Positions 1 through 19,156 of a stretch of 64,000 nt of DNA are shown here, piece by piece. Made by a program: the position numbers and the translations under genes. How positions within the stretch are numbered: the stretch's first letter is position 1; every line of letters starts with the position of its first letter. Source of the stretch: a virus; the IMG/VR virus record IMGVR_UViG_3300027782_000025, positions 210,626-274,625 of that record. One strand, given 5' to 3'. A model generated the notes under the pieces. It did no database searches, was not told where the DNA came from, and worked only from the letters and a program-made list of their open reading frames with translations.

Positions 1-1032
1 AACGGTGATATAAATTATATATCTGAAATTAATGGGTTTTGGCCTTTCGAAAGAGCCACAGCATTTATTGAAAACATGCTTAAAGATCCAACTAAAGTTA
101 GATCCGACGGCACCAGTAGGCCAGCACATTATTTTAAGCATGAAGAATCAAATCAACTAATCGTGCTTGGACGAGATGCTGAAGAATTAGCCTATTCAAA
201 GAATGATACGATGAAAAGACCAATGGCTGAAGGCGGAATTACACCAGATGAAATGTCTATGACGGTGCTGAGCAGCATCATCCATGGGATCTTAGAGACC
301 GCAGAACGCGATGTTGGTAAGTTTGATAATAATTTGACATTGTGTTATTGCACGACAGCACCGGCTTTAAATAAAACAAATAATATTGAATATCACGAAA
401 GAGTTATCGATATCATCCTTAAGAGTTATAACTCACAGAGTGCTATAAAACTTCAAAAGATAAAAGAAAGTCATGCGATAGTTCTAAACCAAAGCCCAGA
501 CGGCTCTGGGATCGGCATCAGCTGGGGAGCAGGCACGGTAACGGTGACATATGTTAAGTATGGCTTAGAAGTTTATAGTTTCTGCTGGGTTGGCGCTGGT
601 GACTGGATAGACGAGAATGTAGCGATTAGACATGGCTATGATGCACATGCTATGAAAAGCATGAAAAAGAACAGTAAGGAAACTCCAACCACAGTATCAA
701 AAGTCAAAATGGACATAGATCTTACCCCCGGCATACAGTATGCCGACAGGCTTCAGTTAGATATATCGCTGCACTATGACGTGCTTATTAATCAAGTAGT
801 GTCAGGTATCGTGGCCGGTTTTAAGGAAAATGAGGCGCAGGCAAGAATCGAAAATGGCATTAATGTTTATATGGCTGGCGGCACTAGCAGTCCGAAGGGC
901 TTTGCTGAGCGTGTGGCTTTAATATTCAATAATAATGAATTACCTTTTGTTTTAAATAAAGTATCTGTGGCAGAAAAGCCACTATTTACCGTTGCGGCAG
1001 GGTGCTTGACAGCAGCAGAGATGTTCGAATAA
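1..1032 (+). CDS. Actin-like (MreB/ParM-type) filament ATPase, 5' end outside window
   Basis: The reading frame is open from base 1, so the true start lies upstream and only about 343 codons are visible. Several features fit the actin/Hsp70 nucleotide-binding fold. A GRDAEELA...RPMAEGG segment resembles the MreB segment before subdomain IB. SWGAGTVTV stands at the second phosphate loop, followed by GAGDWIDENVA. YMAGGTSSPKGFAERV near the C-terminus matches the adenosine-binding GG motif. The usual Asp of the second phosphate loop reads as Ser. Phage actins of the ParM/Alp type form filaments that move or position phage DNA in the cell, so a similar job is inferred. The next gene overlaps its stop codon by one base. 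The fold is fairly sure; the exact subfamily is not. Confidence 0.7.
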   Translation, partial: NGDINYISEINGFWPFERATAFIENMLKDPTKVRSDGTSRPAHYFKHEESNQLIVLGRDAEELAYSKNDTMKRPMAEGGITPDEMSMTVLSSIIHGILETAERDVGKFDNNLTLCYCTTAPALNKTNNIEYHERVIDIILKSYNSQSAIKLQKIKESHAIVLNQSPDGSGIGISWGAGTVTVTYVKYGLEVYSFCWVGAGDWIDENVAIRHGYDAHAMKSMKKNSKETPTTVSKVKMDIDLTPGIQYADRLQLDISLHYDVLINQVVSGIVAGFKENEAQARIENGINVYMAGGTSSPKGFAERVALIFNNNELPFVLNKVSVAEKPLFTVAAGCLTAAEMFE

Positions 1033-1712
1033 TGAATATAATTCATGTCGATGGTAGTTTGGTAGCTATTTTAATAAAAGAAACTATATATATCATCGAC
1101 ATGGATAATTTTACGGTCCATGACCAGATTGGTGCACGGCTAGCTATCCAAAACATTGATGACTGGTTATTTAAAAACACCTTATGGGCTCATGGCATTT
1201 TTAATTTAAAGCTTTTTGTTAATTTCTTCTTACAAGGACGTGAATCTATAGTAATTAAAGACTTAGGCGTTTTACTGTCAGAATTTATCGCTCACCTTTT
1301 TAAAAATGATCAGATCGGCCAATTGTTGAAAATGTATGATGTTGAATTACTAAATTTAGAAACAATTGACAGAGTAGTCTTACCTAATCTTAGAGATAAT
1401 TTTGAAGCACACCGTCTAAAAAATGGTGAATTAGGTCTCGAATTGTTCCTTAGAAGACTAAGAGACCGAATCGCTATATTAAATCCAAACGAAACCAGAG
1501 TCATTGATAGCTTTCTAAGTAGGTTAAAAGAGCAGCATGTCGATATAAAGATGGCTATACCCGATGGCCTTTTAGAACTAGCGAATAATTTTTTATGCAC
1601 GCAAGATGTTTATACTTCTAACATAAGATACCCCAATATCATCGAATCTTTTGAGAAAATTAAAGCTCCAAAAGGTAAGAGAAATGGATTAGAAACCGTA
1701 TTATCTTCATAG
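1032..1712 (+). CDS. Conserved-looking hypothetical protein, downstream partner of the actin-like gene
   Basis: A 226-residue protein of unknown function. The ATG at 1032 overlaps the stop of the actin-like gene (TAATG). A GTG ten codons upstream is also in frame, but the coupled ATG is preferred. The N-terminus is strand-like (IIHVDGSLVAILIKETIYII), and the rest is mostly charged amphipathic helix with a basic C-terminal tail (KAPKGKRNGLE). There is no signal peptide, membrane segment or recognised motif. Actin-type segregation genes are often followed by a small adaptor gene, so an adaptor role is possible, but nothing in the sequence proves it. Confidence 0.6.
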   Translation: MNIIHVDGSLVAILIKETIYIIDMDNFTVHDQIGARLAIQNIDDWLFKNTLWAHGIFNLKLFVNFFLQGRESIVIKDLGVLLSEFIAHLFKNDQIGQLLKMYDVELLNLETIDRVVLPNLRDNFEAHRLKNGELGLELFLRRLRDRIAILNPNETRVIDSFLSRLKEQHVDIKMAIPDGLLELANNFLCTQDVYTSNIRYPNIIESFEKIKAPKGKRNGLETVLSS

Positions 1713-1725
1713 TATAGGAGATAAT

Positions 1726-3126
1726 ATGGAATATCAAGGTTCATCAGATTTTGTTCATCTTCACTCTCACACACTTTATAGCATGCTTGATGGTGTGGCC
1801 TCTCCGGCCCAATATGCCGAAGCTTGTTATAAAAGGAAGTACCAAGCGATGGCTATCACCGAACACGGCCATATGGCCAGTGTTCCTGAAGCTTACGCTG
1901 CTTTTAAACAATATGGTATCAAATACATCCCTGGGTGCGAAATATACTATAATGATTTTGAACTAAAAAGGCAAGAGCTTTTGGCAAGCGGAATAAATGT
2001 CAGATCGCTAGAATGGAGAAAAGAGAATCCAGAGCTAGCAGGAAGAATTATCAGAAATAGACATCTCACAGTAATTTGCAAAAACAAGACCGGATTTGAA
2101 AATCTCTTAAAGTTAACAACTCAAGCATATGAGACAGGCCTGTTCGGCGTATCTATTAAACAGTATAATCGCATATGGTTTGAAAAGTTATGTGAATATC
2201 GCGAAGGACTTATTATATTATCAGGATGTCTAAATGGACCTATAAGTCATGAATTGCGTACTAAATCGATAGTAAATAAAGCAGGCGATGTCATCAGAGA
2301 AATAAGCCGAAAAGAAAGGCTTGAAAACGCTATCGCCAATATAAAAAAATTTAAAGAAGCGTTTGGAGAAGACTACTACATAGAACTACAGATGCCTGGT
2401 GTTGAAGGCGACATGTTTGTGTTTCAGACATCTATTATGCTGGCAGACCATTTCAAGATTAAGACCGTGCTGGCTAATGATTCTCATTACATGGAAAGAA
2501 AAGATTTTCAAATCCAAAAGATCATGATGGCGATAGCTCAAGACGTAACTGTTGACTCTCCTGATTTATTTCATACAAACAGCGACGAGCAATACTTCAA
2601 ACAGCGTAGTGAATTATGGAGTAGATATAATGAGACTGAATATTCCAAAGGGTATACGGCTAGAGAATTCGAACTAATGTGTGATCATACTTTAGAAATA
2701 GCCGACAAATGCGAAAATATCGAATTTGATACGGATCCAAAAATACCGACCATCGTAGACGCTGATAATGAATTACGGCGCTTGGTCGCATCAAAGCTTA
2801 TATCGTTAGGACTTCATAAAAATGAACAAAAACACTTGATCGATGGTAGAGAAGTTACCTATCTAGACCAAGCTAAAATCGAATTAAATCGTTTTATAGA
2901 AAAAGGTTTCGCCAGCTATTTTCTCATTACTAAGAATATTATAGAGTACGGTAAAGAACAAGGTTGGCCGTTCACTGCTAGAGGTAGCGCTGGAGGCTCC
3001 TTAATTTGCTACTTATTAAATATTACATCAGTCGACCCTCTTTCGTGGGGTCTTTCTTTTGATAGATTTCTTGCACCGAGCCGCGGTGGCTATATGCTTA
3101 ATGTCAAGATGACTAAAGGAGATTAG
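1726..3126 (+). CDS. dnaE-N: DNA polymerase III alpha subunit, N-terminal half (PHP domain and start of palm)
   Basis: A 466-residue protein matching the first third of bacterial DnaE. The PHP domain opens with HLHSHTLYSMLDG (about residues 11-23), followed by ITEHGH (44-49), GCEIY and NDSHYM. These are metal-binding PHP motifs of bacterial replicative polymerases. The palm begins near residue 379, and the dNTP-binding Gly-Ser motif RGSAGGS is intact at 419-425, followed by YLLNITSVDPLS and FDRFLAPSRGG. The protein then stops, just before the catalytic PDIDID motif, which lies in the gene at 4393. A strong Shine-Dalgarno (TAGGAGA) precedes the ATG. No intein motifs follow the break. It presumably assembles with the C-terminal half into one replicative polymerase. 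Confidence 0.9.
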   Translation: MEYQGSSDFVHLHSHTLYSMLDGVASPAQYAEACYKRKYQAMAITEHGHMASVPEAYAAFKQYGIKYIPGCEIYYNDFELKRQELLASGINVRSLEWRKENPELAGRIIRNRHLTVICKNKTGFENLLKLTTQAYETGLFGVSIKQYNRIWFEKLCEYREGLIILSGCLNGPISHELRTKSIVNKAGDVIREISRKERLENAIANIKKFKEAFGEDYYIELQMPGVEGDMFVFQTSIMLADHFKIKTVLANDSHYMERKDFQIQKIMMAIAQDVTVDSPDLFHTNSDEQYFKQRSELWSRYNETEYSKGYTAREFELMCDHTLEIADKCENIEFDTDPKIPTIVDADNELRRLVASKLISLGLHKNEQKHLIDGREVTYLDQAKIELNRFIEKGFASYFLITKNIIEYGKEQGWPFTARGSAGGSLICYLLNITSVDPLSWGLSFDRFLAPSRGGYMLNVKMTKGD

Positions 3127-3127
3127 C

Positions 3128-3559
3128 TTGCAGAAGTATTTATTACACGCTTTGAACACACATTTAAAAGTCATGCAAAAGCCTACTGAAACATTATGTG
3201 TATTCTCGCTTAAATTCATCGATGTTCTTATAGATGACGATAAAGTCAGAGCTGAGAAAGAATCACTAGATTTGTTAATAAATATTCAAAATAATATAAT
3301 TTCTAGCATTGTCGAAACTATTGACCGCCTAGAGAAAGAAGCTACCGATTCTACTAAAGTACTGGGATCGGCGATGCTTAATACAAGAAAATCTATTTAT
3401 TCTCATACAATAAATTTAAAATTAGTAGATGTAAGTAATCTAGAAGATAGATATAACAAAGCTATAGTTGAAATCGCTAAAGCGATGAGGTTATTTAATC
3501 TTTGTGGTCTTTCTGAAGCAATTAAAATAAATGATGTAAATGGGAACCAGATATGTTAG
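3128..3559 (+). CDS. Hypothetical helical protein between the dnaE halves (TTG start)
   Basis: A 143-residue protein, not recognised. A TTG start at 3128 is chosen because AAAGGAGA lies five to six bases upstream, right at the end of dnaE-N; the first in-frame ATG, at 3173, has no comparable site. The protein is largely alpha-helical with a heptad-like central part (about residues 40-75). It has no zinc-binding, nuclease or intein motif, so it is not an obvious homing endonuclease explaining the polymerase break. It overlaps the following gene by seven bases. Its position inside the polymerase locus suggests a replication link, but this is inference from context only. Confidence 0.6.
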   Translation: MQKYLLHALNTHLKVMQKPTETLCVFSLKFIDVLIDDDKVRAEKESLDLLINIQNNIISSIVETIDRLEKEATDSTKVLGSAMLNTRKSIYSHTINLKLVDVSNLEDRYNKAIVEIAKAMRLFNLCGLSEAIKINDVNGNQIC

Positions 3560-3999
3560 AGATGCAAATAAATAGATTAGATAATTCCAAGATTAATTCT
3601 AAAATCGTCGTTACTTTAATAAAAAATAATGGCAAAAAAATGAAGACCCAACGGCGTGATATCGCTTTTAAATTGAAAATGACTGATGATACCATATATA
3701 AGTATCAAGCTATCCTAGTTGGTCTATCTGCGATAAAAGATGTTAATCAATCGATAAGAATCAGCATGTTGGGGTTTGAATCGAATGATTTATATGGTAC
3801 ATCAAACGATAAACAGCTATATTTCGACGAATTAAAAAGACGTATTATCAAAATATGCCAACGTCATAATAATGTATTTTTTGATGCTAATATGATAGCT
3901 TTAGATAATGATTATGTCAATATAATTAAAAAGTATTTAGTATCACAATCAGAGTACCATGATACCGGTACAGTCTTAATCGATAAATCTAAGGTTTAA
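3553..3999 (+). CDS. Hypothetical protein between the dnaE halves
   Basis: A 148-residue protein without recognised relatives. The ATG at 3553 overlaps the end of the previous gene, and a second ATG at 3562 is equally possible. The N-terminal part has mixed strand and helix with a basic stretch (KNNGKKMKTQRRD), then an IYKYQAILVGLSAIKD helix. The C-terminal third contains a basic helix (FDELKRRIIKICQRH). The pattern would fit a small nucleic-acid-binding protein, but no named motif is present. About 60 bases separate it from the zinc-finger gene downstream, and that short gap shows no clear terminator. Confidence 0.55.
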   Translation: MLEMQINRLDNSKINSKIVVTLIKNNGKKMKTQRRDIAFKLKMTDDTIYKYQAILVGLSAIKDVNQSIRISMLGFESNDLYGTSNDKQLYFDELKRRIIKICQRHNNVFFDANMIALDNDYVNIIKKYLVSQSEYHDTGTVLIDKSKV

Positions 4000-4061
4000 T
4001 ACTATGGCTGTTTGGCACAACACAAGCTTAGATCTTTTTATGTATATTGAGATATAAAATT

Positions 4062-4406
4062 ATGGATCATAAAGGTGAATATGATAAATATGCTTTCATT
4101 ATAATGGAAGCGCAAACCGATAATATTGTCAACATAGTACGATTAAAGTCGAACGAAGAAAGACTGAAAACCATTAAAAGCATACGTTCTAAAGGGCAAT
4201 ATTTATTTTACGCTATGACGCACCAAGACGAAAAAACCAAGAGGGTCACTATAAAAAGGCCCTTTGTCGTCGATTTTGATTCAGTTCCTTCAGCTGAGGA
4301 ATCAAAATGTATTGAAAATGATATAAAGAAGCTTAGCTGCAAAAAATGTGGCAAAAGTTTTACTTCTACTTCTGGGCTAACGAACCATCTAAATGCAAAA
4401 CATTAA
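4062..4406 (+). CDS. Small protein ending in a single C2H2 zinc finger
   Basis: A 114-residue protein whose last 22 residues form a classical C2H2 finger: Cys-x2-Cys, twelve residues, then His-x4-His (CKKCGKSF...HLNAKH), with the final His as the last residue. The ATG at 4062 is preferred over a TTG five codons upstream; neither has a strong ribosome site. The N-terminal 90 residues are unrecognised, with a basic segment KRVTIKRPF. The start of the polymerase C-terminal half lies within the zinc-finger codons (14-base overlap), so the two are likely translationally coupled. A DNA-binding role linked to the polymerase is plausible but not shown. Confidence 0.65.
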   Translation: MDHKGEYDKYAFIIMEAQTDNIVNIVRLKSNEERLKTIKSIRSKGQYLFYAMTHQDEKTKRVTIKRPFVVDFDSVPSAEESKCIENDIKKLSCKKCGKSFTSTSGLTNHLNAKH

Positions 4407-7116
4407 ATCTTGGGAAGAAATTGTCGAAAAGGCTGGAGAGTTGGTTACCGATAAACCGAAGATTTATAAAGACAGACTAAAATTCGAAATATATGAAATC
4501 GAAAAGCAAGGGGCAGAACGCTACTGGTTAGAATTAGTGACTGATGGAACGACTTTCGATGCAAACCCGAATCGTCTATTACTACCATACCTTTTAAATC
4601 TAGTTTCTGTCGACCCAATCTCCACAGACCATAGCGGCATCATGACAAGCATATCTGCCAATGATGTTTTAAAATACAAAGACCATAACAATGGTAAAAT
4701 GCCAACAGGAATCTACAGAGATTCTGACATGCCGGACATCGATATAGATTGCTTGCCTGGGGCCAGAGATCATTTAAAAGAATACGTAATTTCTAAATAT
4801 GGCCAGAATTCAGAAGATAGTTATGGATCTGTATGTAGCGTTGGCACATGGCAAACTTATAAATTCAAATCTGCAATAATCGATGTCTCTGTGGCTCTTG
4901 GAATAATGTCTAGATTTGATGCCGAAAGAACGACCACACAATTACCAGAGCACGCAGATGATTTGCCGGAAAATGGTATATCAGTCTGCAGAGGTAAATA
5001 TTTAAAGGAAGGTGTCGAGATAGAATGTGGCACTATTCACGGTGATGCTACTTGCCCATCTTGTAAGCAATCCATCACGGATGCTCCGACTATTGGTCAG
5101 CTTATTGAAGAACTACCAGTTCTCAAAGAATTCGCGATAAAAAACCCTGAGATCATAGCATCAGCGATCAAACTAGTAGGCAGAATTAGAAACATGGGCA
5201 TGCACGCCGGTGCTTTACTAATAACAGACAGAGCGTTGTTTGGCAATATACCTATGGCCAAGAGCAGTAATAAGGGCTATTGGGTAAGCATGTGGACAGA
5301 AGGTAGAAGCACCCAGCTCTCAAAATTTGGGTATGTGAAATGGGACTGGCTTGGTCTTAAAACCTTAGAATATATATTTAGGTGTTGCGAGATGGTTAAA
5401 CTTAACCGCGACATCAATTTTGGCGAAAATTTGTCTGGCTGGGAAGACATCGATCCTAAGCAACGTAAAGCCGGCTTTTTTATCGATGCTTCTGGTGTTA
5501 AACACATTATCAGCCTCGACGACGAAGGGGCTCTAAAGCTAGCAAATAAGCAGAAATGCGATGGTATTTTTCAGTTCGACACTGAATTAGCCATGTCTTT
5601 GCTGGCTCATGGCGTTAGGAATTTCGAAGACTTAATGTTAATCAATGCGATGGGCCACCCAGGGCCAATTGCCGCTCTACCAGAGACAATGGCAAATCGT
5701 GACGATCCCACGATGGCATGGAAAAAACGCATGCATCCAGAAGTCTATAATATTCTTAAAGAAACTTATGGACAACTGGTTTATCAAGAGCAATTAACGC
5801 AGCTTTGGCAGAGATTAGCTGGATTTACTGCGCCTGAAGCTCAAGAAACGAGGAAGGCCGTTGCTAAGAAATGGACACACAAATTAAGAAGCGTAGAACA
5901 GAAATGGGTCGCTGGTGCTTCTAAAACCATCGGCGAAGACGAAGCTCGCACTATTTGGTCCAAAATGGTATCATTCGGTCGTTATGCATTTAATAAATCA
6001 CATTCTGTAGCTTATTGTTTGGTAACCCTACGATGCTTGTTCCTAAAAGCGCATTTTGCGCCTGAGTTTTGGGCATCTGTCATGAATGATTGCCATCCAG
6101 ATAAGCTGGTACGTTATATGGGTGTTGCAAGATCAGAAGAATGGAAACCGACAGCAATCACTAAACTCGGTTCGAGCAGATCAGATGATCCATTGCGCTT
6201 TGAAGCTATCGACATTAACAATTTATCATTAAAGTTTATAGTAAAAGATAACACGATATTTGTTGGTGTCAGTAGCATAAAAGGCTTTGGCGAAAAAATA
6301 GCTGAGTGCTTAATCACTGCACACAAATATATAAACATGGATGATTTTATTTTAAAGACCGGGATAAAATCTAAAACAGTGTTAGAACGGTTAATTAAAC
6401 TTGGGGCCTTTAGAAATCTTGAAAGACACAATAATAGCAAGGCTTTGTGGGTTTATTATCAAACGAAGTATGGCAATGGGCCAGATGCAAAAGAGACTAA
6501 AAGCTTCATCTCCAACCTCATTATTTCTAAACAAGGATGGAATGATGGCTCTATTGCGGCTGAGAGGGAAAGACTCGCCAGTGAATACAGATTGATCTAT
6601 CCAAAGAAAAAAGTTATACCTAAAAAATTACTTAATTGGAACCCTGAACCGATCATCGATTTTGATGCCGTTCTTGGCGCTATCGGAGATGATTTTAGTT
6701 TTGAAGAAAGACTACAATTTCAGAACGATTACTTAGGATATTACATCGACTCGCCTCTAGGATTATTTAGTTGCAGGGGTGATCTAACGATTGCTGCAGC
6801 AAAGACAAATGCTAAGTCCGGCCAAGACATCATAGCTATCGAAGGAATAATTGTAAATATAGAATATGCTACATCAAAGAATAATAAACCGTACGCTAAA
6901 ATATCGACATCAGATGGTATGTTAAAAACCAGTATTATGGTGTGGTCCAAAGAATTGTCGGGGTTAGATAAAACCAAATTGATGATTGGCGCCGGAATTA
7001 GAGTGATCGTGGATTATGATGGCGAGCGAAATAGTTTTTCATTACGACGCAATACTTCGATAAACATACTGAAGAGAAAGCCAACTAATGCAACTGCCGA
7101 CGAAAGACGGGATTAA
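4393..7116 (+). CDS. dnaE-C: DNA polymerase III alpha subunit, C-terminal half with all catalytic aspartates
   Basis: A 907-residue protein carrying the catalytic part of DnaE. PDIDID supplies two catalytic Asp (D115, D117), and KWDWLGLKTL supplies the third (D318). Fingers motifs follow, including GIFQFD, a helix-hairpin-helix-like region, and a C-terminal OB-type domain (from about residue 800). Residues 25-95 form a degenerate copy of the segment that ends dnaE-N (YLLNLVSVDPIS against YLLNITSVDPLS), but its Gly-Ser dNTP motif is lost. About residues 199-224 hold an added Cys set ending in CPSCK, likely a zinc ribbon. No ribosome site precedes the ATG, which overlaps the zinc-finger gene, suggesting reinitiation. 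It should need dnaE-N for activity. Confidence 0.9.
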   Translation: MQNIKSWEEIVEKAGELVTDKPKIYKDRLKFEIYEIEKQGAERYWLELVTDGTTFDANPNRLLLPYLLNLVSVDPISTDHSGIMTSISANDVLKYKDHNNGKMPTGIYRDSDMPDIDIDCLPGARDHLKEYVISKYGQNSEDSYGSVCSVGTWQTYKFKSAIIDVSVALGIMSRFDAERTTTQLPEHADDLPENGISVCRGKYLKEGVEIECGTIHGDATCPSCKQSITDAPTIGQLIEELPVLKEFAIKNPEIIASAIKLVGRIRNMGMHAGALLITDRALFGNIPMAKSSNKGYWVSMWTEGRSTQLSKFGYVKWDWLGLKTLEYIFRCCEMVKLNRDINFGENLSGWEDIDPKQRKAGFFIDASGVKHIISLDDEGALKLANKQKCDGIFQFDTELAMSLLAHGVRNFEDLMLINAMGHPGPIAALPETMANRDDPTMAWKKRMHPEVYNILKETYGQLVYQEQLTQLWQRLAGFTAPEAQETRKAVAKKWTHKLRSVEQKWVAGASKTIGEDEARTIWSKMVSFGRYAFNKSHSVAYCLVTLRCLFLKAHFAPEFWASVMNDCHPDKLVRYMGVARSEEWKPTAITKLGSSRSDDPLRFEAIDINNLSLKFIVKDNTIFVGVSSIKGFGEKIAECLITAHKYINMDDFILKTGIKSKTVLERLIKLGAFRNLERHNNSKALWVYYQTKYGNGPDAKETKSFISNLIISKQGWNDGSIAAERERLASEYRLIYPKKKVIPKKLLNWNPEPIIDFDAVLGAIGDDFSFEERLQFQNDYLGYYIDSPLGLFSCRGDLTIAAAKTNAKSGQDIIAIEGIIVNIEYATSKNNKPYAKISTSDGMLKTSIMVWSKELSGLDKTKLMIGAGIRVIVDYDGERNSFSLRRNTSINILKRKPTNATADERRD

Positions 7117-7630
7117 ATGCGACGGCTGCGGGCTTCAGTTTCATGAAGATTTTACTTATTATTCGATAGATTTTAGAAGCGCTAAATCAAAATTTGGGCA
7201 ACACTTATCATTGAGAGATCTAGACTCAGCACCAATGGTCGACACTTTTGATTATTGCAGTATGTGTTATGAGAAACTCCAAGACAAGATAGTAGAAATA
7301 AACCAAAAAACATCTCAGAAAACTGGCTCAAGATATTGTGATCTTTCTGGACAAGATCTGATGCAGTTAAAAACATATTACTATGCTACCATAACTGGAG
7401 CTACAGTCAAACAAACAGGTGTACCATTTACTTGTGAACAGTGCGGCCTTCAAGCGCACACCCCGACAACAGTATGTAAGTGCGGGTCGGTTAAATATGT
7501 TAGGAAAGCCGACGTACATACTGATAAAAAATTAATAGAAATCTTCATAACACCAGATATATTTAATAGCTTTGCCGTTAGAAGAGAAAAGCATAAACAA
7601 GAAGGAAGTAATTGGAATGTTACCAGCTAA
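7088..7630 (+). CDS. Zinc-ribbon protein, unknown function
   Basis: A 180-residue protein overlapping the end of the polymerase gene by 29 bases. It has two likely metal sites: an N-terminal pair CDGC...CSMC (about residues 13-62) and a C-terminal ribbon CEQC...CKC (about 118-133). The middle is helical and polar. Such double zinc-ribbon proteins are common in phage replication regions and usually have no assigned role. It overlaps the next gene by 14 bases, so the genes from the polymerase to 8132 appear to be one operon. No nuclease or helicase motif is visible. Confidence 0.65.
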   Translation: MQLPTKDGIKCDGCGLQFHEDFTYYSIDFRSAKSKFGQHLSLRDLDSAPMVDTFDYCSMCYEKLQDKIVEINQKTSQKTGSRYCDLSGQDLMQLKTYYYATITGATVKQTGVPFTCEQCGLQAHTPTTVCKCGSVKYVRKADVHTDKKLIEIFITPDIFNSFAVRREKHKQEGSNWNVTS

Positions 7631-8132
7631 CCCATATGATTTGCATGAAATACTCTTAAATAACGTCTTAATGCATGCGAGACCGATAGAGTGGAATTCT
7701 CACATGGTCGATCAGCATACTAACAAGAGTGCGCTTGGCGATCAAGTAAGAGCCACAAAGGCCGTCCTTACATGTCCTGATTGTGCATCTTTAGTCGAAA
7801 TATTGGATATGTATGATCTTAATGGTTATTATTATTGCGAATGTTTTAAAGGTTATAAAAAGACTAGAGATCAGCTGCAGACAGACGAAATAAATTATGA
7901 AGACCCATTTCAGAATCCATTTTCAGAAGATCTGAATCTAGAATCCTTTCTATACCCACAGATAGCTAGTACACCGGTGAAAACTGGAACCATTAAAGCT
8001 GATAAAAAAGTAAAGCCCAAAAAATTATGTAAGGTAGATATCAAAGCTAAGAATAATGATGTCATCGCTAATGAAGATAACATCATGAAATTGGCGAGTG
8101 AACCATTCAATGACGAAGATCTATTAGAATAA
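7617..8132 (+). CDS. Hypothetical protein with an internal zinc-binding motif
   Basis: A 171-residue protein. The ATG at 7617 is chosen over an in-frame start 15 codons upstream because GAAGGAAG lies at the right distance. A Cys pair (CPDC) followed about 20 residues later by CEC suggests one metal site in the first half. The second half is acidic, then rich in Lys (KVKPKKLCKVDIKAK), and ends with an acidic tail (FNDEDLLE) like those used for protein-protein contacts in replication proteins. No family is recognised. It sits directly after the other zinc-ribbon gene. Confidence 0.6.
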   Translation: MLPANPYDLHEILLNNVLMHARPIEWNSHMVDQHTNKSALGDQVRATKAVLTCPDCASLVEILDMYDLNGYYYCECFKGYKKTRDQLQTDEINYEDPFQNPFSEDLNLESFLYPQIASTPVKTGTIKADKKVKPKKLCKVDIKAKNNDVIANEDNIMKLASEPFNDEDLLE

Positions 8133-8136
8133 GCAT

Positions 8137-9066
8137 ATGAACTACATTTTAGGGTCAGGCATAGTTGGTCTAACTGCTCGACACATCCTAGGAGCTGATT
8201 GGCAAGTAGTTCCATTTTATAAAAGCAGATTTTTTTCGAGCAATCCACCATTAGATGATAACTTCTTGTGTAGACATGAGCGGTTGGACTATATTATTGA
8301 TAAATTATTGCCAGGTAAAATAGTTAATTCTATATTTTATAAAAGATCTTGGTCGATGAATGGCATATTATCAACGAACGGCGATAAGATAGTTATTAAT
8401 GATTGGCTCGACAAAGTTTATGGCAATGATGTGCCAGGACAAAGTTTACCTTACTATTTGCAAAAAGACATATTTCAGATTTATAATAATGTCAGGATCA
8501 GCGAAATTTACAAGGCACTGTTAGACTTATACTTACCGGTCCTAAAACAGAACGCTACTGCCGGCTTGCCGACTTCAATCAGAGATGGATACATATATTT
8601 TGGCGAAGAAAGAAAGCCATATGATAATATAATTAGCACAATCCCAGCCGATGTTTTATATAACCTTACTGGACGTACAAGTTTATTAAAATCTAAGGAT
8701 ATGCATTATGTGCATTTGTTTACCGAGGAATTAGATTTTGAAGGCGCTAATCAAATGATGGTCGCTGATAGAGATATCGAATTTTTTAAAGTATCGAACA
8801 TAGCTCCAAGTCGATATTTGTTTTATTTTTTAAAAGACATGTTACACCCTGGCATATATATGCAAAATTTTCTTAAGAAATTCGAAATTATAGACGGTAC
8901 TATGGTTAAACAGGCTTTAACACTAGGAAATACGATAGATATAAGCGTATTCAAGAAAGAGAATATACATCCGATAGGTAGCTATGCTATATGGGACCCT
9001 TGCTTGGATGTTGCGAGCTGTTTTTTAAGATTATTAAATACCCTTGACACCGGATTTAAAAAATGA
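8137..9066 (+). CDS. Flavoprotein-like oxidoreductase/mutase (amine-oxidase or UDP-galactopyranose mutase type fold)
   Basis: A 309-residue protein starting with a Rossmann dinucleotide loop (ILGSGIVGLTARHIL, residues 4-18). The middle has YDNIISTIPADVLYNL, which resembles the 'D-x-V-I-x-T-x-P' strand of amine-oxidase, protoporphyrinogen-oxidase and UDP-galactopyranose-mutase flavoproteins. The C-terminus (PIGSYAIWDP) resembles the 'GRYA-W' segment of the same fold. It overlaps kdsB by four bases (ATGA), so a nucleotide-sugar function such as a mutase is the favoured inference. It is shorter than typical mutases (about 370-400 residues) and its substrate is unknown. Confidence 0.55.
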   Translation: MNYILGSGIVGLTARHILGADWQVVPFYKSRFFSSNPPLDDNFLCRHERLDYIIDKLLPGKIVNSIFYKRSWSMNGILSTNGDKIVINDWLDKVYGNDVPGQSLPYYLQKDIFQIYNNVRISEIYKALLDLYLPVLKQNATAGLPTSIRDGYIYFGEERKPYDNIISTIPADVLYNLTGRTSLLKSKDMHYVHLFTEELDFEGANQMMVADRDIEFFKVSNIAPSRYLFYFLKDMLHPGIYMQNFLKKFEIIDGTMVKQALTLGNTIDISVFKKENIHPIGSYAIWDPCLDVASCFLRLLNTLDTGFKK

Positions 9067-9779
9067 TTAAATCGAATGCTATAATAATTCCAGCAAGATT
9101 AAAATCGACTAGGCTCAAGAAAAAATTACTTATCGAAGTTAAAGGCAAACCAATTATCCAATACACTATTGAGAATGCTCTAGCGAGTAAGAAGAAAAAT
9201 CGTATTATTGTAGCGACAGAGGATTTAGATATTAAAAGATTCGTCGATAGTCTCGGATATGATGTCGACTGTGTTCGGACACCCCAATTTAATAACGGCA
9301 CGGAACGAGTGCGACACATATCAAAAGAATTACTTAATGGTTATGCTAGAGTGGTAAATCTTCAAGCTGATGAGCCATTGTTTAACGCAGATAGTATCGA
9401 CGCCGTGTTTGGTGAAATAAGCAATGACATTGTCTTGACTAGCGCATACTCCTTTATTAAGAGTGAAGCTGAATATAATGATCCGAATACCGTAAAAGTG
9501 GTATTAAACGTATTCGACATGGCGCTATATTTTAGTAGATCATCAATACCACACGGTGGTTTTACTTCAGCATGCAAACATATCGGCATATATGGTTACA
9601 AGAGAGACGTACTTGCTGATTTACCAACCAGTAGCAATTATCAAAAATCAGAAAATCTTGAACAATTGTCTTGGTTAGAGAACGGCTACGCTATAAAAAT
9701 GGTTAGAATCAATTATGAGACAATAGGTATTGACACGCCAGAAAATATCGAAGCTTTTAAGGCTACTCTTGAGAAGTAA
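9063..9779 (+). CDS. kdsB: 3-deoxy-manno-octulosonate cytidylyltransferase (CMP-Kdo synthetase)
   Basis: A 238-residue protein of the usual KdsB length. It shows IIPARLKSTRL near the N-terminus (CTP-binding loop), NLQADEPL (about 99-106, the family's NxQGDEP), YFSRSSIP, KHIGIYGYK, the NLEQLSWLENG helix and GIDTPENIE at the end. KdsB couples Kdo to CMP, making the activated sugar for lipopolysaccharide core or capsule. In the family motif the Gly of QGDEP is Ala here. No other Kdo gene is seen nearby, so the phage may use host Kdo or a related 3-deoxy sugar acid. It is coupled to the flavoprotein gene upstream and converges on a gene on the other strand (17-base overlap of 3' ends). Confidence 0.88.
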   Translation: MIKSNAIIIPARLKSTRLKKKLLIEVKGKPIIQYTIENALASKKKNRIIVATEDLDIKRFVDSLGYDVDCVRTPQFNNGTERVRHISKELLNGYARVVNLQADEPLFNADSIDAVFGEISNDIVLTSAYSFIKSEAEYNDPNTVKVVLNVFDMALYFSRSSIPHGGFTSACKHIGIYGYKRDVLADLPTSSNYQKSENLEQLSWLENGYAIKMVRINYETIGIDTPENIEAFKATLEK

Positions 9780-10173
9780 GCGTATCGCTGTCCGACGGCA
9801 TACTTTCAAGATAATAAGCAAATTCATCCTTATTTTCGACCTTGCGAAGATATTCAAACTCGCCCTTCCTTCTTAGATAATTTCCGAACCTCATAATCAT
9901 CGTCGAAAATGTTTTGAATCTAGAAGGAATATATTGCGAAAGATCGGTTTTTGATAATCTGCAATTATTATCTTTAAATAATTTATAAATGAAATCATTA
10001 TCGACATCTTTTTCTTTTTTCTTGTCTTCAACAGCGCCGGCTAAATCTTTAATGTCTTGAATTGTGTCCTTTAGGATTTCGCCGGCTTTACCGGTTAGAT
10101 GTAAAGCATTTTCTGTCGCTAATTCATCTATATTAATATTTAGATCAATGTCGATGATAGTGTACTTAGTCAT
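9763..10173 (-). CDS. Hypothetical small charged protein
   Basis: A 136-residue protein on the minus strand. This stretch has no gene on the other strand, and an AAAGGA site precedes the ATG, so it is likely real. The N-terminal half has a beta-like start (YTIIDIDLNINI) and a long Lys/Asp-rich helix. The C-terminal half (LSKTDLSQYIPSRFKTFSTMIMRFGNY, quoted in part) could form a small helical DNA-binding unit, but no defined helix-turn-helix can be called. It is divergent from the gene at 10185, with only 11 bases between the two starts. Function unknown. Confidence 0.55.
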   Translation of the reverse strand: MTKYTIIDIDLNINIDELATENALHLTGKAGEILKDTIQDIKDLAGAVEDKKKEKDVDNDFIYKLFKDNNCRLSKTDLSQYIPSRFKTFSTMIMRFGNYLRRKGEFEYLRKVENKDEFAYYLESMPSDSDTLTSQE

Positions 10174-10184
10174 GGAGGTCCTTT
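10174..10184. promoter_or_regulatory. Back-to-back ribosome binding sites of divergent genes
   Basis: Only 11 bases separate the ATG of the minus-strand gene (ending at 10173) and the ATG of the plus-strand gene (10185). The stretch reads GAGGTCCTTT-like on the plus strand, giving GGAGG for the right-hand gene. Its complement gives AAAGGA for the left-hand gene. The two transcripts must therefore begin inside each other's coding region and be complementary at their 5' ends. Confidence 0.6.
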
Positions 10185-10985
10185 ATGAAATGTTTTTTAT
10201 GTACCAGCGATGCTTTCGATAATTCTCAATTAACAATACAGATGGAAGACGGCAAGAAAGTCGATATCTATCTATGCGAAGTACATTCTGAATCCTCTAT
10301 TAAACAGCTTAAGGAAGCCTATGTCCAAAAGAAAGTAGATTTAGATAATTTAATAAAACAAGCCAAAGAGCTAGGATATAGTATAGATCTGGACAGTCTC
10401 TTGAATCCATCTAGCAGATCTATCCTGACGGCCACGGAGATACACGTAGCACCAGAAGTTTTACAGATTCCTATTAAACCGGCTACCCAGCCTGCTAAAG
10501 TACAAATTAGGCAAGAAATAATAACGGAAGACGACGAAAACATGATTCCGACCGAAATTATAGACAAAAAGGTAATGCGGTCAGTCGGTGGTAATACTGA
10601 AATGGGTAATGTGTCGGCGCATCAATCTTATGATTTTAATAGTCTCGGAGACAAGCTGCCAGAAAACGCTAGAATTGGTAAAGTAAAAATGGCTATGGTC
10701 GAAGGGCGCGGTGGCCAGCCCATCGCCATACCACAGAAGCGGGTTGATGGGCTTGGCGAAACGCATATCATGATAAATAAAGCAGAAAACGATGATAAGT
10801 TACAAGCACGATTTAAAAAGATGGCTCAGGAGAGCAAATCAGATAAATTCGCTAACTTCTCCCAGAATGGATATGCAGACACGACTAGACCTTGTCCGAT
10901 TTGCAGGGGCAGTGGGTTGGTTAGGAACGGTAAAAATGAATCAAGTTGTCCAAAATGCGCTGGCGGTGGTATGATATCTATCTAA
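10185..10985 (+). CDS. Two-zinc-site protein with a DnaJ-like CxxCxGxG ribbon
   Basis: A 266-residue protein with a zinc site at each end. The N-terminus has CFLC (residues 3-6) and CEVH about 25 residues later. The C-terminus has CPICRGSG...CPKCAGGG, the CxxCxGxG pair seen in DnaJ zinc domains but present only once. Between them lies a helical segment (about 40-75) and a long, low-complexity central part. DnaJ central ribbons bind unfolded chains. There is no J-domain here, so chaperone action is only a possibility. A GGAGG site supports the start. Its 3' end overlaps that of the minus-strand gene at 10978-11199 by eight bases. Confidence 0.6.
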   Translation: MKCFLCTSDAFDNSQLTIQMEDGKKVDIYLCEVHSESSIKQLKEAYVQKKVDLDNLIKQAKELGYSIDLDSLLNPSSRSILTATEIHVAPEVLQIPIKPATQPAKVQIRQEIITEDDENMIPTEIIDKKVMRSVGGNTEMGNVSAHQSYDFNSLGDKLPENARIGKVKMAMVEGRGGQPIAIPQKRVDGLGETHIMINKAENDDKLQARFKKMAQESKSDKFANFSQNGYADTTRPCPICRGSGLVRNGKNESSCPKCAGGGMISI

Positions 10986-11199
10986 TAGTATAAGGTCTAT
11001 TACCCATACCAAAGAATTGGCGGTGTCTTTCACTTACTGGCACCCCTGTTGAATATGAAGTATCACCCTTCTGACTATTTCCCATATCAAAACCAGACGA
11101 AGGATTAAACCCTGAAGGCTGTCGCCCAGAATTAAAATAATTCTCGCTGTTTAAGACTTCACGCATTTTTTGCCCTAGAAAGCCTTCATTCAAATTCAT
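10978..11199 (-). CDS. Small hypothetical protein, Gly/Ser/Asn-rich
   Basis: A 73-residue protein on the minus strand with AAAGGA upstream of its ATG. After a short helix (GQKMREVLN) the chain is rich in Ser, Gly, Asn and Pro and is probably disordered. It overlaps the preceding minus-strand gene by 14 bases, so the two form a two-gene operon. No motif or family is recognised. Confidence 0.5.
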   Translation of the reverse strand: MNLNEGFLGQKMREVLNSENYFNSGRQPSGFNPSSGFDMGNSQKGDTSYSTGVPVSERHRQFFGMGNRPYTIR

Positions 11200-11704
11200 C
11201 GTGTATATCCTTTACATTTTTCTTGTTAAGGTCGGTCTTGATGATGTCGAATTCAGAAGCTTGTTCTGGCTGCGATACCTCTTTAATACCATCCATATCA
11301 GAATTTAATCCTGAGTCCTGCTCTGCCCAAGCATCGCGACCATCTCTTAACTCTTCTAATAATTTGTCTGCTAGATCTAGAGCTTTTGCGATTTCAGAGG
11401 AATCAATAGCTTGGGCTGTAAGCTCTTTTTCCATAGCGCTATTAAATGTAGTTGATCCAAAATTCTTATAACTATGCGCCTTATTAAAAGCCTGCAATAT
11501 GGGCCCTATATAAATTAATTTAGCGTTAAACAATTTGTCTCGATATTTGGAATAAATATCATTATGAATAAATTCTAAGCCATTTACACGCTCTAGATCA
11601 TTAAGATCATCTTTATCATGACCTTTGAGGCCTAATTGGGCATCTTGATTCAGGTAAATATCAAGTGCTTCTAAAAAAGTCTTTTGTTTCTTATTAAGGC
11701 TCAT
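11186..11704 (-). CDS. Hypothetical helical acidic protein
   Basis: A 172-residue protein on the minus strand. Two ATGs lie two codons apart. The second (at 11704) is chosen because GAGGA sits at normal distance from it and touches the first. The protein is mostly helical and polar, with an acidic C-terminal half (KEVSQPEQASEFDIIKTDL) and no Cys or membrane segment. It is followed by the 73-residue gene, with overlap. It is divergent from the gene at 11735, so the short AT-rich gap between them probably holds promoters for both directions, although no clear -35/-10 pair stands out. Confidence 0.55.
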   Translation of the reverse strand: MSLNKKQKTFLEALDIYLNQDAQLGLKGHDKDDLNDLERVNGLEFIHNDIYSKYRDKLFNAKLIYIGPILQAFNKAHSYKNFGSTTFNSAMEKELTAQAIDSSEIAKALDLADKLLEELRDGRDAWAEQDSGLNSDMDGIKEVSQPEQASEFDIIKTDLNKKNVKDIHDEFE

Positions 11705-11734
11705 ATTCATTCCTCACTTAAATTTTAAATTTGA

Positions 11735-12076
11735 TTGTCATATATTGGTATTTATCTGATGGAAAACGAAGAAAGAATTAGCAGATTCGATCAGGTTACT
11801 ATTAATACTACCCGTAGAGTAAGTTATCTATCTGCACCTGAGGGTCAACAGCTTAATCCGAATGGTATGTGGATGGTAGCTGCAGCTATAGGAAATGAAT
11901 TATTATTAACTAAAGAATCAATAGTAATACGGATACCTGCGGCAGATGTTAAGAAAGTATTAGATTATCATAGGACATTTACAAACATCTTAGACTCTTT
12001 AGGAAAGTTTAACAATTATGAAAGCAGAAAAGAAAGACCCACCGAAGACCCTCCAAGACCTGATGAAGAGGATTGA
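11735..12076 (+). CDS. Hypothetical protein upstream of recA
   Basis: A 113-residue protein if the TTG at 11735 is used, or 105 residues from the ATG at 11759. Neither start has a clear ribosome site. It has a strand-rich core (GMWMVAAAIGNELLLTKESIVIRI) and a charged Pro-rich C-terminal tail (RPTEDPPRPDEED). The tail is encoded in the 59 bases that overlap the start of recA in another frame. That overlap is long for this genome, so the tail may be constrained by the recA reading frame. The close coupling suggests expression with recA. Function unknown. Confidence 0.5.
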   Translation: MSYIGIYLMENEERISRFDQVTINTTRRVSYLSAPEGQQLNPNGMWMVAAAIGNELLLTKESIVIRIPAADVKKVLDYHRTFTNILDSLGKFNNYESRKERPTEDPPRPDEED

Positions 12077-13130
12077 TAAGGACTTCGGCCCAGGGACAAT
12101 CATGCGTGGCAGAAGCAGCATAGTTAATGTTAGCATAGTCCCGACTGGAATCCCCTCTATCGACAAGGCATTAGGAGCTGGTGGTGTGCCTATCGGCCGT
12201 ACTTTGGAAATATTCGGGCCAGAAAGTAGCGGAAAGACAACTACATGCCTACACATCGCCTCTGCATTCCAGAAGCATTATTTCAAGGGTAAGGAACGTG
12301 ATGGTGTTGTAGCATATATCGATGCTGAACATGCCCTAGATATAGAATGGGCGAGAAGATTAGGAGTCAATACGGAAACACTTTGTATTTCTCAACCAGA
12401 TAGTGGTGAAGATGCGTTTCGACTTATAGAAGTGTTGGTAGAGTCTGGCCAAGTTGATCTAGTCGTGGTTGATTCCGTGGCTGCACTTATACCTAAGGCT
12501 ATATTAGAAGAGGATATCGGTAAAGCCACCATGGGTGCTCTAGCCCAACTCATGTCTAAAGCATTAAGCAAATTAAAGGGCAAATGCAATAATAGCGGCA
12601 CCACTTTAGTATTCGTTAATCAGCTTAGAGAGAAGGTCGGTATGGTTTTTGGAAACCCAGAAGTGACACCTGGCGGCCGTGCACTTAAATATTATGCTTC
12701 GGTGAGAGCAGAAATCAAACGCAGCACCGCTATAAAATCTTCTGATGACACTGTTATCGGACATCACACTACTATGAAAATAGTTAAAAACAAAGTCGCA
12801 GCTCCTTTTAGAGTCGCTGAGTTCGACATATTCTATGGCACAAAATCATACCCGATTGCAGGTATTGATGCAGTTTCGTCCCTTTTAGATGTCGGCCTTG
12901 ATGTCGGCGTTATATCTAAGAGCGGATCATTCTTTAATTATGATGGTAAAAGTTTGGGCAATGGTGCTCAAAACGCTTCTAAAGCCTTAAGGAATGATGA
13001 CGTTCTGTTTAAAAAGATAAAAGATGAAATATACTTAAAGGCCTTCGGCCCTGATTTCGGCCAAGTAAAGGTCGATGATGATTTAGAAGACAAATACCTT
13101 GATGATGAGGAAGACCCAAATGGCAAATAG
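12018..13130 (+). CDS. recA: RecA recombinase
   Basis: A 370-residue RecA with bacterial rather than T4 UvsX character. Walker A is GPESSGKT (67-74), Walker B is VDLVVVDS (146-153), and the L2 region and following strand read NQLREKVGMVFGNP...TPGGRALKYYASVR (201-230). The C-terminal tail is acidic (DDLEDKYLDDEED), as in bacterial RecA, where it tempers DNA binding. It forms filaments on single-stranded DNA and drives strand exchange; in phages it supports recombination-dependent replication and repair. AGGAAAG precedes the ATG. The UvsY-like and gp32-like genes about 5 kb downstream would be its partners. Confidence 0.95.
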   Translation: MKAEKKDPPKTLQDLMKRIDKDFGPGTIMRGRSSIVNVSIVPTGIPSIDKALGAGGVPIGRTLEIFGPESSGKTTTCLHIASAFQKHYFKGKERDGVVAYIDAEHALDIEWARRLGVNTETLCISQPDSGEDAFRLIEVLVESGQVDLVVVDSVAALIPKAILEEDIGKATMGALAQLMSKALSKLKGKCNNSGTTLVFVNQLREKVGMVFGNPEVTPGGRALKYYASVRAEIKRSTAIKSSDDTVIGHHTTMKIVKNKVAAPFRVAEFDIFYGTKSYPIAGIDAVSSLLDVGLDVGVISKSGSFFNYDGKSLGNGAQNASKALRNDDVLFKKIKDEIYLKAFGPDFGQVKVDDDLEDKYLDDEEDPNGK

Positions 13131-13452
13131 TCCAAAGTATGATGTAAATGACATAGTTTATTTTAAAGCCTCTGCTGCTAGAGGCTTTATAGAACCGGTA
13201 AAAATAGGTATCGTTGCAAAAATCGATACTACTTGGGTGTATGGTCTAAAATATAAGACCGCTGAGCCTAGCGCGCCTAGAGTTTTTGGCGACAGAATAA
13301 ACTTCGGAAACCTTGGGGCCCAACAGGTATACTACACTGAGGACGAATTCCAAACGTATTGTGAAGCTTTAGGGGTCGCTGAAAAATACTTGACTGGCCA
13401 ATTAACAGCGATTCAAACACTTATCGCCGCAAGTTGCGGAGTCACGGGCTGA
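13120..13452 (+). CDS. Hypothetical small protein between recA and helicase
   Basis: A 110-residue protein. The ATG at 13120 follows GAGGAAG and overlaps the recA 3' end by 11 bases. The chain is beta-rich (YDVNDIVYFKASAARGFIEPVKIGIVAKI) and looks like a small barrel, somewhat like phage proteins with KOW/SH3-type folds, followed by a helix (EFQTYCEALGVAEKYL). No exact family can be named. Its place between recA and the helicase suggests a replication or recombination accessory role. Confidence 0.55.
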   Translation: MANSPKYDVNDIVYFKASAARGFIEPVKIGIVAKIDTTWVYGLKYKTAEPSAPRVFGDRINFGNLGAQQVYYTEDEFQTYCEALGVAEKYLTGQLTAIQTLIAASCGVTG

Positions 13453-13455
13453 TAA

Positions 13456-14796
13456 ATGACACAAATCGTTTCTTATGATGCTGGCAACATAAATGATAAT
13501 GAAGATGAAAAACCATTTGGAAAATACCAAGAAGAAGCGATAATTTCATTAGCTCTTGATCACCCAGAATTCTTCTCCAACGTCGGAAGATACCTTAAGC
13601 CAGACATGTTTGGTCGAACCGAATGCAAGTATGTTATGGCTGTTCTTCTTAATTATTACGAAAAATTTAACATTATCCCCACTAGGCCACTGCTTAGAGA
13701 TATAGTCGAAAAACAATTAACGTCTGATCAGCCTTTTGAGATAGTGTTCAAATTACTTGATAGGAAATCAGACCCCAGAGAAGTTCCGATCATCAAAGAC
13801 ACTTTAATGAAGTGGGCCAAAAATCGAGCATATGGTTTAATTTATAGCGAAGAAGCTATACAAGCTTATGAATCAGGTCGTTTTGAAGAATTAGAGAAAA
13901 TAGTCTCAGAGGCAAATAAGGTAACAGACATAGGTGAAGGTGGCTTTTGGCTGCTAGAACAGTTTGAAAAATTATTCCAATCAGACGCCATAGATCATAG
14001 AACTACGGGATTTCCGAGACTTGATCGAATCCTTAATAATGGCGGACCATCACCAAAAGAAGTGTTATGTTGGTTAGCGCCGACAAACACCGGTAAATCG
14101 ATATTGTTGGTTAATAATGCGATTTCATCTCTTAAAGGCGCTAATAATGATGGGACAAATGGTCAGGACGTACTCCTTGTTACCTTTGAGCTAGACACTA
14201 TTAAAACCGCTCTAAGATGCCTTTCGGCTACGACAGGTATACCTCAAGATCAAGTAGCTAATAATCAAGATTACATTAGAAGAGTCATTAACACTATCAA
14301 AGACACCTATAATAAAAAGCTATTAATATATGAATTTCCCCCTGACGAATGTAGCGTGGATCATATATATGCTTTAATAGATAATCTTAAACGAAAAGAA
14401 GGATGGCGACCAGACGTTGTTGTGGTTGATTATCTTGATTTAATGGTCAGTCGTAATGCAGCATATAACAAGGATGATTATACCAGACAGAAGCATATCG
14501 CTACTGAGCTACGTGGTTTAGCTAAAAACGAAAACGTATTAGTCTTTACTGCTACCCAAACCAATCGTAGCGGTGGGGAAGGGTCGGAACCAATCGATCT
14601 ATCAAAAACCGCCGAAAGCTATGGTAAGCAATTTGCACTTGACTATGTAATTAGTTTAAACCAATCTATCGAGGATAAGTTGGAAAAACCGCCTAGGATT
14701 AGGTTTTATGTCGCTAAAAATAGAAATGGTCCTAAAAATGAATTAATCACCTGTGAGATTAATTATGACACTATGGTAGTTAAGGAGATGGCCTGA
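13456..14796 (+). CDS. dnaB: Replicative DNA helicase, DnaB / T4 gp41-like
   Basis: A 446-residue RecA-fold hexameric helicase. An N-terminal helical domain (about 20-150) resembles DnaB-N. TTGFPRLDRILNNGG opens the ATPase domain, Walker A is APTNTGKS (208-215), Walker B is DVVVVDYLDL (320-329), and TATQTNRSG is the H3-like motif. It unwinds duplex DNA ahead of the polymerase. The Walker A form (xPTNTGKS) is closer to T4 gp41-type helicases than to bacterial DnaB. No primase gene is seen in this window. Its stop overlaps the start of the next gene. Confidence 0.88.
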   Translation: MTQIVSYDAGNINDNEDEKPFGKYQEEAIISLALDHPEFFSNVGRYLKPDMFGRTECKYVMAVLLNYYEKFNIIPTRPLLRDIVEKQLTSDQPFEIVFKLLDRKSDPREVPIIKDTLMKWAKNRAYGLIYSEEAIQAYESGRFEELEKIVSEANKVTDIGEGGFWLLEQFEKLFQSDAIDHRTTGFPRLDRILNNGGPSPKEVLCWLAPTNTGKSILLVNNAISSLKGANNDGTNGQDVLLVTFELDTIKTALRCLSATTGIPQDQVANNQDYIRRVINTIKDTYNKKLLIYEFPPDECSVDHIYALIDNLKRKEGWRPDVVVVDYLDLMVSRNAAYNKDDYTRQKHIATELRGLAKNENVLVFTATQTNRSGGEGSEPIDLSKTAESYGKQFALDYVISLNQSIEDKLEKPPRIRFYVAKNRNGPKNELITCEINYDTMVVKEMA

Positions 14797-15005
14797 TGAA
14801 GATGCGCATCATAATTGATGTCAATGTTTCGAAAACATTGGCGCAAACGATGGAAAGGAATGGCTTTAATGTTATTCCAGAGGGAACTGGGTTAGGGATA
14901 AGAATTCCAAATAGTCCTGCGATCACCAAGAGCAAAAGCAAAATAACGTTTACAGAGATTTTTACAGAGATTACAGATGAACCAAGTACAAAGGAGATAA
15001 GATGA
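14796..15005 (+). CDS. Small hypothetical protein
   Basis: A 69-residue protein with a good ribosome site (TAAGGAGA) and an ATGA-type overlap with both the helicase gene and the following gene. It begins with a strand (MRIIIDVNVSKTLAQTME) and ends in a Thr/Glu-rich tail. It is too short to assign. The tight coupling between helicase and co-chaperonin genes argues that it is expressed. Confidence 0.5.
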   Translation: MKMRIIIDVNVSKTLAQTMERNGFNVIPEGTGLGIRIPNSPAITKSKSKITFTEIFTEITDEPSTKEIR

Positions 15006-15439
15006 TACCGAAGACTGCTAAGCTAATAAAAGAAGAAACCGCATCAAACACCAAGGCCAACGTCGATGAGCCTAAAGTATGCTCAAAAGCCAAGAAATGC
15101 TGCGATAGCGAGCCAGAAAATTACCAAGAAATAGAAATACGTGAAATCAAATGCCTTAATGATTTCGTTGCTATATTGAGATTCGAAGAAGAATCGGTAA
15201 TCGAAATACCCGATCATCAACGTCTTAAAAATGAAGGTATGGTTATTGGCGTTGGGCCTGGTGTCCCTCCAACTATAAATGCACAAGTTATAATAGGCGA
15301 TGTTGTAGCTTTTATGCCGCGTAATATAATCACCGAGATTAAAGGTACAAAATACCCCTACGAAGGCAAGACTATTACCATCGTTTCAGAACGCAATATT
15401 ATTATGACATTAGATCCAATCATCCACAGGTTCGTATAA
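15002..15439 (+). CDS. GroES-like co-chaperonin
   Basis: A 145-residue protein whose last 95 residues match the GroES/T4 gp31 fold: LNDFVAILRF, then EGMVIGVGPGV, then VIIGDVVAFM, and finally TITIVSERNIIMTL. In bacteria and T4, GroES-type caps close the GroEL chamber; phages encode their own to help fold capsid proteins. The N-terminal 45 residues are an added Lys- and Cys-rich extension (KVCSKAKKCC) not normal for GroES. The mobile loop region is short. No GroEL gene is in the window, so the host chaperonin would be the partner. CAAAGGAG precedes the ATG. Confidence 0.75.
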   Translation: MIPKTAKLIKEETASNTKANVDEPKVCSKAKKCCDSEPENYQEIEIREIKCLNDFVAILRFEEESVIEIPDHQRLKNEGMVIGVGPGVPPTINAQVIIGDVVAFMPRNIITEIKGTKYPYEGKTITIVSERNIIMTLDPIIHRFV

Positions 15440-15846: not shown

Positions 15847-15860
15847 TGTATTGATTCATT

Positions 15861-17800: not shown

Positions 17801-17808
17801 GGTGCAAT

Positions 17809-18762: not shown

Positions 18763-18773
18763 GAGGTCCGACA

Positions 18774-19049: not shown

Positions 19050-19067
19050 TGTAAGTAATTAAGAATT

Positions 19068-19107: not shown

Positions 19108-19156
19108 ATTATATCATTTATTTAATCACGGACATCACCGAAAAGGCTAGTGCTAA

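Follow-up and report, generated by a model that had tools for sequence, protein, structure and literature searches.

The DNA polymerase III alpha subunit (Pol III alpha, DnaE) of a huge phage, a lineage of very large viruses of bacteria, is divided inside its active site between two genes, and the half-palm that ends the first gene product is repeated, in a shortened form, at the start of the second. The two genes, here called N and C, lie in IMG/VR virus record IMGVR_UViG_3300027782_000025 (274,625 bases), of which bases 210,626-274,625 were analysed. This whole stretch of 64,000 bases is referred to as the window, and its first base is position 1. The division is conserved in related contigs, and the two proteins probably form one two-chain C-family DNA polymerase with a composite active site.

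Division of the palm

The polymerase core family PF07733 (260 positions) is shared out between the two proteins, with N matching positions 14-98 and C matching positions 99-260, followed by the finger and HhH domains of Pfam. The break falls between positions 98 and 99, that is, between the nucleoside triphosphate (NTP)-binding and the Mg2+-binding parts, and in the whole record PF07733 matches N and C only. On the N-terminal side of the break, the stop comes a few residues past RGGYMLNVKM. The N proteins of relatives end in ...RGGYMLNVDMPDPIS, ...RGGNMLQVTM and ...RGGFMLKVDM, and the bacterial counterpart reads ...NPERVSM-PDIDID. C begins with its own Met and a helix. N stops where an intact DnaE runs on into PDIDID; therefore, the cut lies inside one catalytic centre, and it parts the half that binds deoxynucleoside triphosphates (dNTPs) from the metal-binding half of a single palm. 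A first-pass annotation of the window had already read the locus as a DnaE divided within its active site, with the Gly-Ser motif in N and PDIDID and KWDWLGL in C, and both the open reading frames (ORFs) and the motifs were recovered as described (Table 1).

The hallmark domains of the C family (PHP, PF07733 core, finger and HhH) are all present, divided over N and C, and in a structure model the fold predicted for C matches that of Pol III alpha. The Gly-Ser motif and the three catalytic aspartates are both kept, each on a separate chain rather than on the single polypeptide that characterizes DnaE. The PHP domain of N retains all nine metal ligands at positions defined from Taq Pol III (PMC3666897): H13, H15, D22, H47, E72, H113, C168, D252 and H254, the last two falling slightly outside the Pfam PHP envelope. 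This complete set, as in an active-type PHP exonuclease, is found in the window and in every relative whose sequence covers the nine positions.

The duplicated half-palm

The start of C had been proposed to repeat the end segment of N, and profile comparison bears this out. BLASTP between N and C of the window gives no significant match (best E-value 0.68, located outside the overlap). A BLOSUM62 local alignment of whole N against whole C places its single best match at N 371-440 and C 17-77, with a score of 64, compared with a maximum of 47 in 2000 shuffles. The N copy and the C copy match each other in hhalign with an E-value of 9.7e-6. When 60 bacterial DnaE half-palms, cut before the catalytic motif, were compared with 29 C copies, the match was significant (hhalign probability 97.1, E-value 5.5e-11, score 62.9), and 100 column-shuffled decoys scored far lower, at most 22.7. 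With five sequences per side, hhalign found the correct place only weakly (P 0.007-0.010), and the larger set of relatives firmed the match. The PF07733 profile itself matches both proteins in six related genomes, covering positions ~3-99 in N and starting from position 5-19 in C. Similarly, in the intact phage DnaEs L086 (residues 362-443), L091 (338-420) and L094 (265-341), the N profile and the start of the C profile match the same residues.

The likeness noticed at first was the string YLLNxxSVDPxS, which is present in both window copies. Its near-identity is partly specific to this genome, as relatives have FLLGIHVLDPM in N and WLLGMVEGDPI in C at the same place; therefore, the homology stands on the profiles and not on the string. 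Judged by sequence comparison, the overlap is detectable but weak from this one genome and becomes firm once relatives are included.

The Gly-Ser motif was expected in the N copy only, and it is present in all 30 N proteins and in register in none of the 29 C copies. The lone pattern hit among C proteins, SQRGSEC in L041, lies outside the register. Aligned to bacterial DnaE (L020, L070), the C copies still have both long helices as well as the LLxxTxxDPI segment, and the RGSxxGS strand and loop are deleted. AlphaFold2 models the C copy, with fair confidence, as helices 23-39, 42-50 and 63-67 without the strand, and the N copy as the equivalent helices plus the strand immediately before the Gly-Ser loop. 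The profile of the C copy alone matched no solved DnaE chain, and no match to the C copy was obtained among reference phages at E<=1, which indicates that the lineage is essentially metagenomic.

Conservation, spread and selection

Scans of IMG/VR recovered 34 further contigs in which N and C are arranged as in the window. The gap between the genes is 1266 bases in the window, where relatives have the same two-ORF arrangement, and 442-3194 bases in these contigs (median 1254, window counted in). As the 34 contigs include a few near-identical pairs, and one of them is identical to the window at 100%, the independent lineages are fewer than 34. Beyond them, contig 3300045738_002037 carries N on the plus strand (143.8-145.3 kb) and, ~56 kb away, C on the minus strand (85.3-88.0 kb). 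N and C are thus separable genes, which argues against splicing in cis.

The catalytic motif PDxDxD is present in 29 of 29 C proteins and KxDxLGL in 28 of 29, the remaining protein being truncated by the contig end. In maximum-likelihood phylogenies that also included intact DnaEs from phages and bacteria, the N proteins form one clade and the C proteins form one clade (Shimodaira-Hasegawa-like approximate likelihood ratio test, SH-aLRT, 100 each), and the inner branching order is similar in both trees; a single clade per half and a similar inner order point to one origin and joint inheritance. The ratio of nonsynonymous to synonymous substitution rates (dN/dS), calculated between the window and L006, comes to about 0.004 in the N overlap, 0.06 in the C overlap and 0.02 in the remainder of C, values that are rough because synonymous changes are near saturation. 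On these ratios, the C copy is looser than the rest of C yet clearly constrained, as under purifying selection, and is not decaying debris.

A proposed two-chain enzyme and its origin

In C-family polymerases, the Gly-Ser loop faces the catalytic aspartates, and both are required for dNTP binding and catalysis. In every examined member of the present group each chain has only one of these two elements, and the simplest reading is that N completes the palm of C. Chain N would supply the PHP nuclease domain and the dNTP-binding half-palm with its Gly-Ser loop, and chain C the palm half that bears all three catalytic aspartates, together with the thumb, the fingers, the HhH and the OB-like part. 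N would bind C, as a heterodimer or in a larger complex, with the Gly-Ser loop of N opposite the aspartates of C. Given the nine PHP ligands in N, the enzyme possibly has built-in proofreading. As the C copy is under selection, it should have some role, and its shortened half-palm, reduced to helices, is retained most likely as a scaffold or docking surface. A more specific variant, which we consider doubtful, is that the half-palm lacking the Gly-Ser loop occupies the place of the dNTP-binding half-palm, so that C would stay folded but inactive until this placeholder is displaced by N or N docks on it. If true, polymerase activity would be conditional on assembly with the PHP-bearing partner.

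The pair arose once, and most likely dnaE, or its palm region, was first duplicated and the copies then underwent complementary losses. One copy would have been cut directly before PDIDID to give N, and the other would have lost everything upstream of the half-palm, PHP included, and later the Gly-Ser loop, to give C. Some less derived N copies still resemble C copies (YVDRLEFEL in L059, YVSRMKLEL in L061), which is what a common source would predict. Of the tandem duplication and reciprocal loss envisaged in the first-pass annotation, the homology of the overlap and the complementary nature of the losses stand, whereas the arrival and trimming of a second dnaE would fit as well as tandem duplication; two relatives do carry an additional DnaE, intact and PHP-less.

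Several results weigh against this account of a duplicated gene whose products share one active site. Tandem duplication and gain of a second dnaE would leave the same picture, and the trees of N and C give no resolved shared closest intact relative. In a read-through pseudo-fusion model of N and C, the halves are folded, the overall predicted template modelling score (pTM) is poor at 0.52 and the interface is not readable. An ORF of 399 amino acids at 15861-17060 of the window resembles family A polymerases (PF00476, E-value 5.6e-10), similar PolA-like ORFs occur in 15 of 16 related records, and the split enzyme therefore need not be the main replicase.

Alternative explanations

The two genes might instead encode stand-alone proteins, with C a polymerase whose own palm is completed by its trimmed half-palm and N a PHP nuclease or accessory factor. 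The C copy is indeed conserved, under selection and modelled with fair confidence, and the genes lie apart in one phage (3300045738_002037). However, the Gly-Ser strand and loop are missing from the C copy in every member, and the half-palm of N, with its invariant Gly-Ser loop, has no obvious use without catalytic aspartates. Both genes are, moreover, kept together in 34 contigs with a common history. These points make separate functions rather unlikely.

The other explanations would join or discount the two halves. Ligation by a split intein after translation, in the style of cyanobacterial DnaE, draws on the occurrence of cis and split inteins elsewhere within these genes in relatives, but those inteins are internal to one or the other gene, and the break between N and C persists beside them. 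No intein half is found at the end of N or at the start of C, and no intein model matches N or C of the window. Ligation would also put two half-palms in series; the sequence here refutes this explanation, and its likelihood is very small. Joining at the RNA level, by an intron or by frameshifting, might be thought of for two close genes transcribed in the same direction, and it fails on similar grounds: the joined product would carry both half-palms, no intron family of Rfam is found in window 1-20000, and three ORFs intervene, the last overlapping the start of C. As N and C stand on opposite strands ~56 kb apart in 3300045738_002037, such joining is hardly credible. Nothing was found in favour of an artefact or a decaying pseudogene, as 34 other contigs share the split with intact catalytic residues and low dN/dS, and about 1.3 kb of other genes separates the parts; for practical purposes it is refuted. 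Assembly error and splicing had been named as findings that would overturn the split; the first is contradicted by its conservation in 34 contigs, and the opposite-strand contig argues against the second.

Gene layout and neighbouring genes

The coordinates of the two genes, their domains and the ORFs between them are given in Table 1.

Table 1. Features of the split polymerase locus (window coordinates; aa, amino acids)
Feature	Position	Strand	Evidence
N gene, 466 aa: PHP domain and first (dNTP-binding) half of the DnaE palm	1726..3126	+	Pfam PF02811, E 7.2e-36; PF07733 positions 14-98, E 1.2e-22
PHP domain, N aa 11-222	1756..2391	+	Pfam; nine metal ligands present
Half-palm copy in N, aa 371-440	2836..3045	+	hhalign, local alignment
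Gly-Ser motif RGSAGGS, N aa 419-425	2980..3000	+	sequence; RGSxxG[SC] in 30/30 relatives
Small intervening ORF, 143 aa, TTG start	3128..3559	+	no family matched
Small intervening ORF, 148 aa	3553..3999	+	no family above cut-off
Small intervening ORF, 119 aa, C2H2 zinc finger, overlapping the start of the C gene	4047..4406	+	zf-C2H2, E 1.4e-5
C gene, 907 aa: catalytic palm half, thumb, fingers, HhH, C-terminal OB-like part	4393..7116	+	Pfam, fold model
Half-palm copy in C, aa 17-77, lacking the Gly-Ser strand and loop	4441..4623	+	Pfam in relatives, hhalign, model, local alignment
Catalytic motif PDIDID, C aa 114-119	4732..4749	+	D115, D117, D119 the same in all of 33 sequences
Catalytic motif KWDWLGL, C aa 316-322, with D318 as the third aspartate	5338..5358	+	sequence
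Finger domain, C aa 357-511	5461..5925	+	PF17657, E 5.1e-28

Upstream of N lies a gene for an actin-like protein of the Volactin family (window 1-1032, PF25216, E-value 1.9e-36; L003 1-1524), and L004 has a homologue in the corresponding position. RecA (12018-13130) and a DnaB-like helicase (13456-14796) are encoded downstream of N and C. The window also contains sugar-nucleotide genes, namely a cytidylyltransferase (PF02348, 9063-9779) and a GDP-mannose 4,6-dehydratase (PF16363, 28163-29188, minus strand). A run of very long ORFs occupies 32057-64000, including a single ORF of 3921 amino acids at 45149-56914; these are presumably structural or tail-fibre genes. In relatives, genes between N and C give sub-threshold matches to RNase H (L007 4224-4730, E-value 0.065; L020 1242-1691, E-value 0.02).

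Inteins and further breaks in relatives

The C genes of L016, L101, L019, L041, L046, L071 and L080 are interrupted at GRY|AFNKSH, the site of the cyanobacterial DnaE intein. The interrupting elements are split-intein-like halves on separate ORFs, located at 6989-8962 and 10397-11656 in L016 and at 6974-8806 and 11999-13249 (minus strand) in L101, whose two halves thus lie on opposite strands. The intein_Nterm model scores above cut-off in L101, and both L016 and L101 match models of cyanobacterial intein-bearing DnaE. Inteins also occur within the Gly-Ser loop of N (RG|S), uninterrupted in L038 (6983-8881) and split in L024 (1232-2905 and 3799-4131) and L040 (6944-9709 and 10549-10920); L041 (6944-9538), near-identical to L040, has no RG|S intein. 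Full inteins are found in addition at ND|CHY (L040, L041, L046) and PGC|EIY (L046).

In several divergent contigs, the C gene is broken again (L054, L055, L057 on the same contig as L025, L058/L059, and L073). A separate small ORF then encodes the half-palm copy followed by a beta-rich tail, and the main ORF restarts in another frame within the catalytic motif (PDI-TAG, then DIDL). Two relatives (G002, G011) have an extra intact DnaE of about 560-580 amino acids that lacks the PHP domain (L105 1414-3093 and L106 875-2626, both on the minus strand).

Comparison with known polymerases

Intact DnaE or Pol III alpha, from bacteria and from phages such as L042 and L086, has the same domains, order and motifs as the present pair but consists of one chain with one half-palm. 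Cyanobacterial DnaE is broken in the fingers, before CFNKSH, and its chains are ligated by a split intein. The present enzyme is likewise encoded by two genes, but its break lies in the palm and there is no intein: as had been anticipated, the cyanobacterial site is a different one, since the window's C protein contains an uninterrupted RYAFNKSH and no intein is found at the break. Split family B polymerases, namely PolB of Methanothermobacter and the split gp43 of some T4-like phages, are also replicative enzymes in two chains joined by no intein, but they differ in polymerase family and fold. We know of no duplicated half-domain in them.

The closest parallel is found in the jumbo phages of group 2.2, whose minimal Pol III alpha consists of two proteins, one binding NTP and the other Mg2+ and template (Iyer et al., 2021; PMC7824862). 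There, the split genes are distant from each other, a family B polymerase is present alongside, and reconstitution of one enzyme has been proposed (Iyer et al., 2021). Both systems involve C-family polymerases of large phages and a break of the same kind. Whereas the group 2.2 enzyme is restricted to the core, the window enzyme has PHP, fingers, HhH and an OB-like part. Its genes lie 1266 bases apart and are distant only in 3300045738_002037, unlike those of group 2.2, and no PolB accompanies them, as PF00136 has no match in this record or in 15 relatives, records that may be incomplete. The duplicated half-palm is a feature seen here, with the group 2.2 polymerases compared by their published description only; a sequence search of the phage collection recovered no split polymerase of that group. 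A literature search with few subscription journals covered gave no account of a full-length split Pol III alpha with a duplicated half-palm.

A split Pol III alpha is thus already published for other jumbo phages, and the full-length, PHP-bearing, mostly linked form with a duplicated half-palm appears to be new. If the two chains form one enzyme, it would be a natural, long-lived polymerase of the replicative type with an active site built from two chains, and its origin would be readable as a duplication, after which the copies lost complementary parts at the catalytic motif and kept a half-domain in common. The assembly of a split C-family palm becomes directly testable, and the pair offers a Pol III alpha in which the half that binds dNTPs and the half that binds metal are naturally separate. 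Compared with the minimal side enzyme of group 2.2, the present pair extends split Pol III to full-length, PHP-bearing phage polymerases.

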